This document shows positions 4,625-45,735 of a stretch of DNA of 64,000 nt, piece by piece. Position 1 is the stretch's first letter. Each line of letters starts with the position of its first letter. A model generated the notes under the pieces. That model was not told the origin of the DNA. It saw nothing but the letters and a program-made list of their open reading frames with translations, and ran no database searches. The stretch is taken from contig JAKASR010000001.1 in assembly GCA_021818955.1 (NCBI GenBank), forward strand, positions 310,001-374,000, given 5' to 3'. The position numbers were made by a program, and so were the translations under genes. Origin of the DNA: Acidobacteriota bacterium. GTDB taxonomy: Bacteria; Acidobacteriota; Terriglobia; Terriglobales; SCQP01.

Positions 4625-4668
4625 GTTGCAAAAGCAGCAGCGCCTAAAAGTCAAAGCGGCCGCGCCGC
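4625..4668 (+). repeat. Dispersed repeat, right-half copy R1 (degenerate)
   Basis: The copy starts five bases after the preceding stop codon. It carries the AGCGCCTAAAAG module, an A-rich tract with one substitution, and GCGGCCGCGCCGC in place of the usual GCGGCCGAGCCGC. The long left hairpin is missing. Confidence 0.75.
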
Positions 4669-4714
4669 GCCGGAAATTCTTTGGAGCGGAAGAGGCGTGG
4701 TGCGCTTGGAGAGT

Positions 4715-6592: not shown

Positions 6593-6622
6593 GCGCCTCA
6601 AAGTAAAAGCGGCCGAGCTGCC
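6593..6622 (+). repeat. Dispersed repeat, partial copy R2
   Basis: GCGCCTCAAAGTAAAAGCGG followed by CCGAGCTGCC matches the right end of the repeat family. It forms the left arm of the hairpin between hflX and the convergent DUF5335-like gene. Confidence 0.6.
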
Positions 6623-17581: not shown

Positions 17582-17663
17582 CAGTGAGTTTTCGCAAAGC
17601 GTCTGGCTTCGGCCGGAGGTTTGCGAAAGCGTCAGTGCCTAAAAGTAAAAGCGGCCGAGTCGC
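17582..17663 (+). repeat. Dispersed repeat, full core copy R3
   Basis: TTTCGCAAAGCGTCTGGCTT and the following CGGCCGGAGGTTTGCGAAAG form the long hairpin. The conserved module with AAAAGTAAAAGCGG and a final CCGAGTCGC completes the copy. It lies 60 bases after the methyltransferase stop, in a 355-base gap (17523-17877) with no gene. Confidence 0.85.
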
Positions 17664-21834: not shown

Positions 21835-22146
21835 GAAGCGTTAACGGCCGAGTCGGGCAGCAGTTTTCGTCATTGGCAATTTCGTAGAAATTGCCTTTAG
21901 CATGCTCAATTTCGGAGAAATTGCCTCTAGCCATGCCCGCAGGCCGAAGCGCGGGGTTCCGGTTAGCTCCCGCGCCTCTGAACGACGATGCCAAGCAATT
22001 CCGCAGGAATTGCATCAAGCCAGCCGGCAATTCCGCGGGAATTGCGCCCGGCCATGCCCGGCAGCCATGCGTATTCGCCAGGCGTCCGGTTTCGGCCGGA
22101 CCTTGGCGAAAGCGTCAGCGCCTAAAAGTAAAAGCGGCCGTGCCGC
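21835..22146 (+). repeat. Dispersed repeat, composite copy R4
   Basis: This is the longest composite copy and fills most of the gene-free stretch 21818-22251. It opens with the left module GAAGCGTTAACGGCCGAGTC. Then come four short palindromes of the AATTnCGnnGnAATTG type, near 21874-21893, 21906-21926, 21996-22014 and 22027-22045. A GCAGGCCGAAGCGCGGGGTT segment separates the pairs. The full core, with long hairpin and right-end GC hairpin, occupies 22067-22146. Confidence 0.85.
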
Positions 22147-28603: not shown

Positions 28604-28682
28604 GCAGTATTCGCCATGCGTCCAGTTTCGGCCGGACTTTTGCGAAAGCGTCAGCGCTTAAAAGTAAAAGCGGCCGTGCCGC
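28604..28682 (+). repeat. Dispersed repeat, full core copy R5
   Basis: This complete core copy lies between hemE and hemG. Its long hairpin is around CCAGTTTCGGCCGGAC, followed by the AAAAGTAAAAGCGGCC module and a final GTGCCGC. On the minus strand it begins 13 bases after the hemE stop, and it supplies an upstream ATG in frame with hemG. Confidence 0.85.
28659..28682 (-). terminator. Terminator-like end of R5, after hemE
   Basis: Read on the minus strand, GCGGCACGGCCGC can fold into a short hairpin and is followed directly by TTTTACTTTT. It begins 13 bases after the hemE stop. Confidence 0.5.
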
Positions 28683-31373: not shown

Positions 31374-31453
31374 GAGAGCGCTGGCGCCGCACATCGGGCC
31401 ATGTTTCAGTTTAGTGTCGCGCGGCTCGCTTGCCAACCGCCGCTACCTGGAGC

Positions 31454-31527
31454 CGTCGCAAGGTGTCCGGTTTCGGCCGGACCTTTGCGAAAGCGTCAGC
31501 GCCTAAAAGTAAAAGCGGCCGAGCCGC
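31454..31527 (+). repeat. Dispersed repeat, full core copy R6
   Basis: The copy lies between the thiolase and purH genes. GTCCGGTTTCGGCCGGAC forms the tip of the long hairpin. Its outer arms TCGCAAGG and CCTTTGCGA pair nearly perfectly. The right end is the standard GCGGCCGAGCCGC. Confidence 0.85.
31504..31527 (-). terminator. Terminator-like end of R6, after the thiolase gene
   Basis: On the minus strand GCGGCTCGGCCGC is followed by TTTTACTTTT and begins five bases after the thiolase stop codon. Confidence 0.55.
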
Positions 31528-33492: not shown

Positions 33493-33574
33493 CCATGAGT
33501 TTTCGCAATGCATCCGGTTTCGGCCGGACCTTTGCGCAAGCGTCAGCGCCTAAAAGTAAAAGCGGCCGGCCCGC
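33493..33574 (+). repeat. Dispersed repeat, full core copy R7
   Basis: This complete core copy starts five bases after the stop of the 79-residue ORF and lies before the PIN-TRAM gene. Its long hairpin has TTTTCGCAATGCATCCGG and CCGGACCTTTGCGCAAG arms. The right end reads GCGGCCGGCCCGC. Confidence 0.85.
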
Positions 33575-38694: not shown

Positions 38695-40434
38695 ATGGCT
38701 AGCCTATCCCGCCCGCTTGCGTATCCGCCGCAAGCTGAAACCGAAAAACAACTGCGGCTGCATTCCCGCTCGCGCCGGGAAACCGCAATCGTATTTTGTC
38801 TTTTCGCGCTGGCGCTGTTGCCACGGGTCATGGCGCTCGGTGCCAGGAGCCTGTGGCTGGATGAGGCCGCCACGGAAGGCATCGCCCGGCTTTCCTGGCG
38901 TCATTTCTGGCTCTTGTTGAGCCGGCATGAAGCCAATATGGGTTTGTATTATCTGCTGATGCGCGGATGGCTGCGGTGGGGGCATGGCGCCGCCTGGCTC
39001 CGCCTGCCTTCGGCGCTTTTTGGTGCGCTGGCCGTGGTGGTGGGCTATGCGCTGTTAAGGCGGGGCTTCAGCCGCGAAACCGCCATCCTGGGTGCCTTGC
39101 TGCTGGCCCTCAATCCCTTCGCCATCGCCTATTCCCAGGACGCCCGCGCTTATTCGCTGGCCATGCTGCTGGGAATGCTCTCCACGCTGTTTTTCATGCG
39201 GGCCATTGAAAACCGCCGGCTGGCGCCGTGGCTGGCTTTCGACTTGGCCGCGATCGCGGCGGTGTATGCGCATTTCTTTGCCGTGCTGGTGCTGGCTGCG
39301 GAAGGAGTGTGGCTGCTATGGCTTCGGCCTGGCCGCCGCGTCTGGAAAAAAGCCGCCGCGCATGGCGCCGTCATCCTGGCCGGCATCAGCCCGCTGGCGT
39401 GTTTTGTCTTGTGGCGTAACGATGGCCAGCTTTTTTGGGTGCCGCCCTTCGCGTTCCACATTTTGGGAAAAATTCTGGGTAACTTTGCCGGCGCGCTGGA
39501 TCGTTCGGAATGGCAATTTTGGCCCTTGGCGCTGGCAGTGTATGGGTTGTGTCTGTTGGCGGTGTGGCGTCCAGCCGCGCTCTCCTTGAGTATTCGCCAT
39601 GTGTCCGGCTTCGGCCGGATCTTTGCGAAAGCGTCAGCGCCTAAAAGTAAAAGCGGCCGAGCCGCCCTGGGCGCGAAAAAGTTCTCAGCCGCCGGGAATC
39701 TGGTCGGAATTTCCCAACCGGCGCGGCGCCGCCTGGTGATGCTGTTCGTCGTATGGCTGCTGGTGCCGATCCTGCTCTGCCTGCTCATTAGCCTCTGGCA
39801 GCGGGCGCTGGTCAATCGTTTTTTGCTCGTGGCCTTGCCCCCCGTCCCTCTGCTGGCCGCCATCGGCCTGCGGGAATTGCGCGGCAAATTCCGCTGGGCG
39901 GCGGTTGCTGCCCTCGGCGCGCTCTCGCTCAGTTTGCTGCCCCGCCTTTATCGCGCCCCGCTGCAGGATTGGCGCGCCGCCGCCGCCTGCATCGCCCATC
40001 GGGCCCGCCCCGGCGACCGCTTAATCGTTTATGGCGGCTATTGCGCCTTGCCGCTGGAACATTACCTGCGGCGGTGGCCTCGGTCTCCGCGCCTCGTTTA
40101 TCCCCGGAGCGCCAATGCTTATCGCCTCTTAACCCTGCGCCATGGCAAGCTTGCCGCCCGCTATGGCGGCATTGTCGCCCTGTGGCGCGCCCTGGCCGGG
40201 GTGCGCCGCCGCCGGCTATGGTTGGTGGGGTTGGCGTTTTTTCCGCATTTTCAGCTCAATCGCGTCACCATGAAATGCCTGCGCCATGCCGGCTGGCCGC
40301 CCGGGTTGCGCTTTCGCGCCGGCTACCACTTCACCGGCGTGGATGTCGCGCTCTTTGCGCCGGAAGCGTTGACGGCCGAGTCGGACAGAAGTTTTCGTCC
40401 GAAATCGCAGGCCGAAGCGCGGGGTTCCTATTAG
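38695..40434 (+). CDS. Polytopic glycosyltransferase (GT39/ArnT-like) carrying an in-frame repeat insertion
   Basis: The product has 579 residues. After a basic N-terminus, many hydrophobic helices follow. LWLDEAATEGIARLSW (about 52-67) matches the first-loop acidic motif of GT39/ArnT/PMT-like enzymes that use lipid-linked sugars, and SQDARAYSLAML is also typical. Residues about 298-324 (HVSGFGRIFAKASAPKSKSG) are encoded by repeat copy R8, between two membrane segments. The last 24 or so residues (EALTAESDRSFRPKSQAEAR) come from the left module of composite copy R9. Despite both, the frame is open throughout. Sugar and acceptor unknown. Confidence 0.82.
   Translation: MASLSRPLAYPPQAETEKQLRLHSRSRRETAIVFCLFALALLPRVMALGARSLWLDEAATEGIARLSWRHFWLLLSRHEANMGLYYLLMRGWLRWGHGAAWLRLPSALFGALAVVVGYALLRRGFSRETAILGALLLALNPFAIAYSQDARAYSLAMLLGMLSTLFFMRAIENRRLAPWLAFDLAAIAAVYAHFFAVLVLAAEGVWLLWLRPGRRVWKKAAAHGAVILAGISPLACFVLWRNDGQLFWVPPFAFHILGKILGNFAGALDRSEWQFWPLALAVYGLCLLAVWRPAALSLSIRHVSGFGRIFAKASAPKSKSGRAALGAKKFSAAGNLVGISQPARRRLVMLFVVWLLVPILLCLLISLWQRALVNRFLLVALPPVPLLAAIGLRELRGKFRWAAVAALGALSLSLLPRLYRAPLQDWRAAAACIAHRARPGDRLIVYGGYCALPLEHYLRRWPRSPRLVYPRSANAYRLLTLRHGKLAARYGGIVALWRALAGVRRRRLWLVGLAFFPHFQLNRVTMKCLRHAGWPPGLRFRAGYHFTGVDVALFAPEALTAESDRSFRPKSQAEARGSY
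39587..39665 (+). repeat. Dispersed repeat, full core copy R8 inside a gene
   Basis: This complete core copy (GTCCGGCTTCGGCCGGAT hairpin tip, then AAAAGTAAAAGCGGCCGAGC) lies wholly inside the GT39-like gene and is read without a stop. It is the only copy in the window that sits in the middle of a coding region. Confidence 0.9.
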
Positions 40435-40552
40435 GTCCCGCGCCTATGAACGACAATAAACTTTCAGCCGCCATGAGTATTCGCAATGCGTCCGGTTTCG
40501 GCCGGACCCTTGCGAGAGCGTCAGCGCCTAAAAGTAAAAGCGGCCGTGCCGC
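40363..40552 (+). repeat. Dispersed repeat, composite copy R9
   Basis: The left module GAAGCGTTGACGGCCGAGTC is followed by a GCAGGCCGAAGCGCGGGGTT segment and the full core (about 40471-40552). The AATT palindromes present in R4 and R10 are absent. The left third is coding, as the 3' end of the GT39-like gene. Confidence 0.85.
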
Positions 40553-41888: not shown

Positions 41889-42140
41889 CTAAGCGTTAAC
41901 GGTCGAGTCGGGCAGTAGTTTCGTCCGAAATCGCAGGCCGAAGCGCGGGGTTCCTGTTTGGTACCGCGCCTATGAACGACGATACCAAGCAATTCCGCAG
42001 GAATTGCATCAAGCAAGCCGGCAATTCCGCAGGAATTGCGTCCGGCAATGCCCGGCATCCATGAGTATTCGCCATGTGTTCGGTTTCGGCCGGACCTTTG
42101 CGAAAGCGTCAGCGCCTAAAAGTAAAAGCGGCCGAGCCGC
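41889..42140 (+). repeat. Dispersed repeat, composite copy R10
   Basis: The left module is AAGCGTTAACGGTCGAGTCG. It is followed by the GCAGGCCGAAGCGCGGGGTT segment, two perfect GCAATTCCGCAGGAATTGC palindromes (about 41990-42040) and the full core (about 42058-42140). It fills the gap between glgM and the convergent methyltransferase gene, whose 3' end it encodes. Confidence 0.88.
42115..42140 (-). terminator. Terminator-like end of R10, overlapping the methyltransferase stop
   Basis: On the minus strand GCGGCTCGGCCGC and TTTTACTTTTAG encode the last residues and the TAG stop of the methyltransferase, so hairpin and stop codon coincide. Confidence 0.4.
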
Positions 42141-42880
42141 GTGGCCGGCCGCACTAGCGCCAGCAGCGAAACTCCCCAAACCGGATCGAAACGGGACCAA
42201 CAGGCGGGGCTGACGAGCAGAGTATAAAGGCTGCGGTTTACCCACTCCGGCGGCAGCCGGTCTTCCAGCCGCAATCCCTTCGATTGCCCTGGAAACAGGT
42301 GGCGCCAGCCGCGCGCGATGGCTATCGCCGGGAGGGCGGCAAAGTTGAACGCGCGGCAGAGCAGCACTTCGCCTCCCGCGTCCTGCAGCAGGCGCAGTAG
42401 CGATTTCCGGCTATAGCGCCGGTAATGGTGTAGCGCCACGTCCCAATCGCTCCACAGCCAGCTCAGTGCCGGCACCGTGAGCGCCAGCACCCCATCGGGG
42501 CGCAAAATGCGCAGCAACTCGCGCAGGGCGGCGCCGTCATCGGCCAGATGTTCCAGCACGTCCAGCGCGGTGGCGGCTCGGGCGCAGCCGGTGGCCAGCG
42601 GCAGTTGATCCACCCGCGCCTGCAGTAATCCCAGCCCCCCGTGCGCCCGTGGTCGCGCCAGCCGTAGGCTTTCCACATGATCGTCGAGGCCAAGCACGCG
42701 GCAGACCGGCGCCATCTCCTCCAGCCAGGCGCCGGTGCCCGCGCCGGCATCCACCAGCAGGTCGCCGGCATTCAGGCGGACAAAGCGCTGCAACCAGTGC
42801 CGCACGATCGCCCGTTTGCCGCAATAAAACCAATGCTGCCGGTCAATTCGCTCCAGGCGCTCGTATTCGGCCGGATTCAT
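42116..42880 (-). CDS. Class I SAM-dependent methyltransferase
   Basis: The product has 254 residues. Motif I is LLVDAGAGTGAWLEEMA (about 41-57), with acidic end VLGLD, then ALDVLEHLADD (motif II/III) and LRPDGVLALTVPA. HHYRRYSRKSLLRLLQDAG is common in methyltransferases found in polysaccharide clusters. The last eight or nine residues (TRLGRFYF) are encoded by repeat copy R10. The start overlaps the upstream glycosyltransferase stop by four bases, so the two are co-expressed. The substrate is probably a lipid- or glycan-linked intermediate, by context only. Confidence 0.82.
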   Translation of the reverse strand: MNPAEYERLERIDRQHWFYCGKRAIVRHWLQRFVRLNAGDLLVDAGAGTGAWLEEMAPVCRVLGLDDHVESLRLARPRAHGGLGLLQARVDQLPLATGCARAATALDVLEHLADDGAALRELLRILRPDGVLALTVPALSWLWSDWDVALHHYRRYSRKSLLRLLQDAGGEVLLCRAFNFAALPAIAIARGWRHLFPGQSKGLRLEDRLPPEWVNRSLYTLLVSPACWSRFDPVWGVSLLALVRPATRLGRFYF

Positions 42881-43901: not shown

Positions 43902-43934
43902 GCGTTAATGGAAAAGTAAAAGCGGCCGAGCCGC
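43902..43934 (+). repeat. Dispersed repeat, short copy R11
   Basis: GCGTTAATGGAAAAGTAAAA then GCGGCCGAGCCGC. It looks like a link between the left module (GCGTTAA) and the right end (AAAAGTAAAAGCGG), with the long hairpin missing. It lies in the divergent gap 43870-43991. Confidence 0.7.
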
Positions 43935-45575: not shown

Positions 45576-45735
45576 AAGCGTTAACGGCCGAGTCGAACAG
45601 CAGTTATCGTCCTTGGCAATTCTGCGAAAATTGCGCCTGGCCATGCCCGGCAGCCATGAGTATTCGCCCTGCGTCCGGCTGCGGCCGGACCTTTGCGAAA
45701 GCGTCAGCGCCTAAAAATAAAAGCGGCCGAGCCGC
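45575..45735 (+). repeat. Dispersed repeat, composite copy R12
   Basis: The left module GAAGCGTTAACGGCCGAGTC starts on the last base of the upstream stop codon. One GCAATTCTGCGAAAATTGC palindrome follows, and the full core occupies about 45655-45735. It fills the gap between two convergent membrane-protein genes and touches the stop codon of both. Confidence 0.88.
45711..45735 (-). terminator. Terminator-like end of R12
   Basis: On the minus strand GCGGCTCGGCCGC begins at the stop codon of the 658-residue membrane protein gene and is followed by TTTTATTTTT. Confidence 0.55.

Follow-up and report, generated by a model that had tools for sequence, protein, structure and literature searches.

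A hairpin-rich repeat lies in frame in an acidobacterial glycosyltransferase gene and recurs in at least four other genes

A repeat copy inside a gene raises the question of whether the reading frame continues through it and, if so, where the added peptide comes from and why it is tolerated. We asked this for R8, a repeat copy that a first-pass annotation of the 64-kb stretch of DNA from an uncultured acidobacterium analysed here (the window) had placed at 39587-39665, inside a glycosyltransferase gene. Judged from sequence, R8 is very probably a recent insertion of a selfish, non-autonomous, hairpin-rich miniature element that works much as the Rickettsia palindromic elements (RPE) do and is tolerated at permissive sites in proteins.

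The insert in the glycosyltransferase gene

R8 falls within an open reading frame for 579 residues whose 3’ end overlaps a further copy of the repeat:

38695..40434, + strand: host gene, a PMT_2-type (GT-C-like) membrane glycosyltransferase of 579 aa, open through the insert (from the ORF, PF13231 and hydropathy)
39588..39665, + strand: R8, a short-form repeat (78 nt) in frame in the glycosyltransferase gene, adding 26 aa, residues about 299-324 (from its sequence, family match, in-gene test, an orthologue without the insert, and its length and edges)
40365..40552, + strand: full-length repeat copy (188-nt class) over the 3’ end of the glycosyltransferase gene (from repeat length and edges; the C-terminus is unlike that of the orthologue)

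The host protein matches PMT_2 (PF13231, E 1.2e-12), and mannosyltransferase models match it below cut-off. R8 agrees with the family core at 96% and encodes residues 299-324, SIRHVSGFGRIFAKASAPKSKSGRAA. Its placement in coding sequence is thus confirmed, with the edge refined from 39587 to 39588 and the residues from 298-324 to 299-324. As had been claimed, the frame runs through the repeat with no stop, and the codon-usage score is strong on both flanks (43 upstream, 41 downstream). The description of the added peptide as a basic segment between two membrane helices was also borne out: it contains six K/R and no D/E, and hydropathy places hydrophobic segments, the predicted helices, on either side at 278-296 and 347-365. 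A structure prediction for the glycosyltransferase, built from two sequences, gave a pLDDT of 42 and was set aside. At the other end of the gene, the copy at 40365-40552 supplies the last ~24 codons, in another frame, together with the stop, so that the protein ends in ...SDRSFRPKSQAEARGSY.

For comparison we used two species of the genus, the source genome (G000) and G001 (JAJYIU01, Acidobacteria bacterium isolate DBS2-1.bin132). The G001 orthologue is 62% identical, occupies the same place before glycogen synthase and aligns on both flanks of R8, but lacks the R8 peptide; two paralogues in the source genome lack it likewise. We looked for repeat-free orthologues carrying the same peptide and found none. 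The alignment had also been proposed as a way to find the exact edges and any duplicated target bases; the edges had to be taken from the repeat family and not from an empty site, because the inter-helix loop differs in length between R8’s host and its sole close orthologue. Most simply, the insert would span 39588-39665, that is 78 nt or 26 codons, with no target duplication.

Since the assembly is of metagenome type (47 contigs) and short-read assemblies break or misjoin at repeats, the reading frame could in principle be a pseudogene or an artefact in which a repeat joins unrelated contigs, or its protein might not be made. We consider this very improbable: the two halves of the gene keep the same order and frame, with glycogen synthase adjoining as in G001, the flanks of R8 both score strongly as coding, there is neither stop nor frameshift, and four independent cases, described below, concur.

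Ends, modules and coding potential of the repeat family

Across the 3.8-Mb genome, 386 sites lie within 3 mismatches of the 21-mer core of R8, against 1 for a reversed-pattern control. The copies have a median identity to the consensus of 94%. Within the window, a 104-nt stretch of the repeat occurs in nine copies that are 67-88% identical to the reference copy. Besides those listed above, the following copies and fragments were recognised in the window by family match unless stated otherwise:

4626..4673, + strand: degenerate copy, 3’ part
6593..6621, + strand: degenerate copy, 3’ part
17585..17663, + strand: short-form copy, intergenic
21837..22146, + strand: long-form copy (310 nt), intergenic (family match and length)
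28604..28682, + strand: short-form copy
31449..31527, + strand: short-form copy
33496..33574, + strand: short-form copy
41892..42140, + strand: long-form copy, antisense to a methyltransferase-like ORF at 42116-42880 on the - strand (ORF list and length)
43908..43934, + strand: 3’-core only (GAAAAGTAAAAGCGGCCGAGCCGC)
45577..45735, + strand: long-form copy with an internal deletion (159 nt; family match and length)

The copy at 41892..42140 provides the methyltransferase-like ORF with its C-terminus, GRFYF and stop, through the overlap at 42116-42140.

The abundance of the family bears on the idea that the segment is ancestral to the glycosyltransferase family, the repeats being derived from it and the orthologues having lost it. 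We found no support for this, and it is almost certainly wrong: there are 386 copies, nearly all of the examined ones intergenic, the long forms reach far past the peptide, and the lack of the peptide in the orthologue and paralogues already contradicts it.

Long copies have a sharp 5’ end, AAGCGTTAACGG, short forms such as R8 start at an internal GAGTATTCGC, and nearly all copies end in ...GCGGCCGWGCCGC. A C precedes the copies at a fixed distance in 93% of long and 92% of short forms, and the left boundary common to both is CNNN/RAG (the slash marks the junction). Counted from the R of RAG, long copies fall mainly into classes of 189, 219, 222, 249 and 252 nt, with others at, for example, 221 and 251 nt; the short unit measures 78 nt from the G to the last C. 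Long copies carry further hairpin modules, and the consensus folds as a chain of hairpins (z -2.97 for the full element), with R8 alone folding more weakly (z -1.86). No regular target duplication was found across the family. Two long copies, near 106694 on contig C6 and near 2661 on contig C22 of G000, have flanking direct repeats of 14 and 12 bp (AAAGTGATCATTTA and TTCGCCCTGCGT). Also on C22, at 2659-2887 (L067), three core units stand head to tail with exact joints, GCCGC/TTCGCC, which looks as if new copies join the 3’ ends of old ones.

One might suppose that the element owes its form to a life as a protein-coding parasite, with selection holding its modules at 3n nucleotides and its frame open so as to render insertions in genes harmless. 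The main length classes of the long form are indeed multiples of three, as are the lengths of 61 of 107 long copies and all 33 clean short forms, and all five copies inside genes (see below) use one frame. We nevertheless think this rather unlikely. In long copies the antisense frame is open as often as the sense frame (40 versus 39), the 250/251-nt class is not a multiple of three, and the 30- and 33-nt module lengths may be due to chance. With the 21-mer anchor left out, intergenic copies display no excess of synonymous changes in the peptide frame, and for this reason we do not think that the family is kept as protein. An apparent scarcity of stop-creating changes in intergenic copies was discarded as confounded, the 21-mer having served as search anchor.

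Copies inside genes and orientation along contigs

Of the 269 copies examined (see below), five lie inside genes. Each is carried by the coding strand of its host, enters after the second codon base (phase 2) and is preceded by CNNN, and the insert lengths of 78, 105, 222, 252 and 312 nt are each a multiple of three. In addition to R8, they are (signal peptides were called by eye):

TPR/FG-GAP/UnbV_ASPIC protein P0001, 1196 residues: 222-nt long form in sense, 74 extra residues; G001 has a clean empty site
M1 aminopeptidase: older, internally deleted copy of 105 nt in sense, where the signal peptide meets the mature protein; G001 is without the insert
Phosphoesterase (start codon uncertain): 252 nt in sense, following the signal peptide; G001, G002, G003, G004 and G010 lack the insert
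Secreted protein, 394 residues: 312 nt in sense, following the signal peptide; G001 lacks the insert

In P0001, residues 982-1057 are absent in G001, where the flanks 2-981 and 1058-1189 match at 78% with two codons between them; other aligned relatives also do without this segment. The M1 aminopeptidase of G001 reads ...VASAQ/IPAGIPRALARRR at the corresponding site, and the insert in the source genome, though only 73% identical to the consensus, is still open and in frame. The use of one frame by 5/5 copies has p = 0.008 if survival is proportional to the frames staying open, for a small n, and the antisense peptide thus seems to be less tolerated. Apparent N-terminal ‘fusions’ to the repeat on contigs C38, C6, C27 and others have neither a signal peptide nor a homologue to back the upstream part; as a start downstream of the repeat is possible for these genes, they were set aside.

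The inserts are probably translated and their effect on the host proteins may be nearly neutral. Selection might instead have adopted the peptide for a function and kept it, for example in helping to anchor the loop at the membrane’s inner face or as a linker following the signal peptide. The strongly basic character of the R8 peptide in its inter-helix loop and the openness of the old aminopeptidase insert are in keeping with such a role. The same peptide, however, occurs at differing locations in unrelated proteins, orthologues do without it, and the intergenic copies show no synonymous excess in the element frame, so we judge uptake for a function to be quite improbable and continue to favour tolerance of a selfish insert.

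To place the in-gene copies in context, the positions of 269 of the about 386 copies, in 1.56 Mb of stretches, were compared with genes called by codon usage, which make up 77.6% of that DNA. Five of the 269 lie inside genes, some 15 cross gene ends and the remainder are intergenic, a strong avoidance of genes given the coding fraction (p about 1e-162). Relative to the nearest gene, the element is on the same strand in 131 cases and on the opposite strand in 138. Adjacent copies, on the other hand, share their orientation 189 times and differ 18 times, compared with 431 agreements and 407 disagreements for genes five apart. Whole contigs carry the repeat in one orientation regardless of gene direction (C6, 28/28; C22, 16/16; C46, 22/23; also C35 and others), and the copies in the window are likewise all oriented alike. 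By contig, orientation tracks third-position GC skew (Spearman -0.64, p 7e-5; sign-flip p 0.0014), and the C-rich strand is the sense strand of the element in 202/269 copies. As a contig-level correlation, which is not proof, this suggests that insertion or retention is tied to the direction of replication; the sense strand would then probably be the lagging strand.

A course of events can be proposed from these features. The element would have spread recently in one acidobacterial lineage, inserting between CNNN and the next base with no duplication, so that a unit of 3n nucleotides would leave the host frame intact. On entry after the second codon base the sense frame would be open, and the protein would gain a soluble, basic peptide of low complexity, 26-104 residues long. 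Selection would purge most of the insertions that hit genes, which would explain why nearly all copies are intergenic, and the survivors would be those combining an open frame with a tolerant site such as an inter-helix loop, the junction between signal peptide and mature protein, or an inter-domain linker. A more specific proposal, that the element is oriented by replication strand, targets single strands and is built of modules kept to whole codons with an open sense frame, so that it could spread within genes as well as outside them and repeatedly add linkers to exported and membrane proteins, has a small chance of being correct.

Mobility and relation to known elements

Mobility of the repeat is deduced from its copy number and the empty sites, as no mobilising enzyme was found. 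The source genome has no Y1 tyrosine transposase (PF01797); G001 and other relatives have this family, with no repeat beside the examples examined. The only reverse transcriptase found in the source genome is an RT-Cas1 fusion, which leaves a retroelement route unsupported. The same goes for a retroelement with truncated 5’ and fixed 3’ ends: no mobile reverse transcriptase was found, and the 5’ ends fall into discrete classes. The fusion lies at L284:220-2316 (- strand), adjoined by an ORF that looks Cas6-like by eye. The mobilising enzyme is probably now absent or unrecognised, and probably acted on one strand at replication. In G001 there are 2 matches to the core and about 30 diverged fragments. 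No comparable copy number was found elsewhere in the order, the expansion being present in 1/200 genomes. Neither IMG/VR, searched by exact pattern, nor plasmids and phages gave a match to the repeat, and Rfam gave none within the window.

The first-pass annotation had likened R8 to RPE, which were reportedly described by Ogata et al. in 2000. As with RPE, the repeat sits in frame in genes (five here) whose orthologues in G001 and other relatives lack it, forms stem-loops (several hairpins here, weaker in the short form), and has an open frame at permissive protein sites. RPE and the WPE of Wolbachia are hairpin repeats of ~100-150 nt with many copies and an open peptide, found in frame in unrelated conserved genes at exposed or tolerant sites (PMC2229807, PMC10969869, PMC3767692). 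In the Rickettsia set, roughly half of the copies are within genes (PMC10969869), as opposed to 5/269 here. The present family also differs in belonging to another phylum and a high-GC genome, in its modular lengths of up to ~310 nt, in its contig-wide strand polarity and in its CNNN/RAG start. The likeness therefore holds for the mode of working but not for membership, the two having been compared by description.

Insertion of small repeats in frame is established for Rickettsia and Wolbachia, for several MITEs and for REPs (PMC2229807, PMC10969869, PMC3767692, PMC3733652). The NEMIS/Correia, ERIC and YAPL/RU-2 MITEs are non-autonomous, have an open frame and are fused in frame to host ORFs (PMC2229807). 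The present family shares with them its non-autonomous nature, its open frame and the occurrence of signal-peptide proteins among the hosts. In contrast to MITEs, it lacks terminal inverted repeats, its ends reading AAGCGTTAACGG and GCGGCCGAGCCGC, and there is no regular duplication of TA or another target. GTAG/CGTC REPs are small palindromes, mainly intergenic with some inside ORFs, and are often located at the 3’ ends of genes, where they provide stop codons (PMC3733652). All of these traits recur in the present family. Unlike GTAG REPs and REPINs, it lacks the GTAG tag and head-to-head inverted dimers, neighbours being overwhelmingly in the same orientation, and its genome contains no RAYT gene. 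In the portion of a REP survey that we drew on, tyrosine transposases are recorded for Acidobacteria and no acidobacterial REP or protein-inserting repeat is (PMC3733652); this agrees with the earlier statement that no acidobacterial example was known, within a literature of incomplete coverage. Working like RPE but departing from them in its intragenic share, and from MITEs and REPs in the features above, the repeat is best regarded as a new family of a known kind.

The case for protein-inserting repeats has been built largely on Rickettsia and Wolbachia, which are intracellular and whose small populations could explain the tolerance. Five orthologue-checked sites in an acidobacterium would suggest that proteins gain linkers and loops from selfish DNA by a general route, and the youth of the family, together with an insert-free relative in the same genus, makes neutrality and the choice of sites testable. 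The modular build has a parallel in the BIMEs, or mosaic intergenic elements, of E. coli, which combine several hairpin modules variably. The present family is a similar mosaic of hairpin modules, and differs from BIMEs in that its 3’ module is fixed and its copies keep to one strand polarity.
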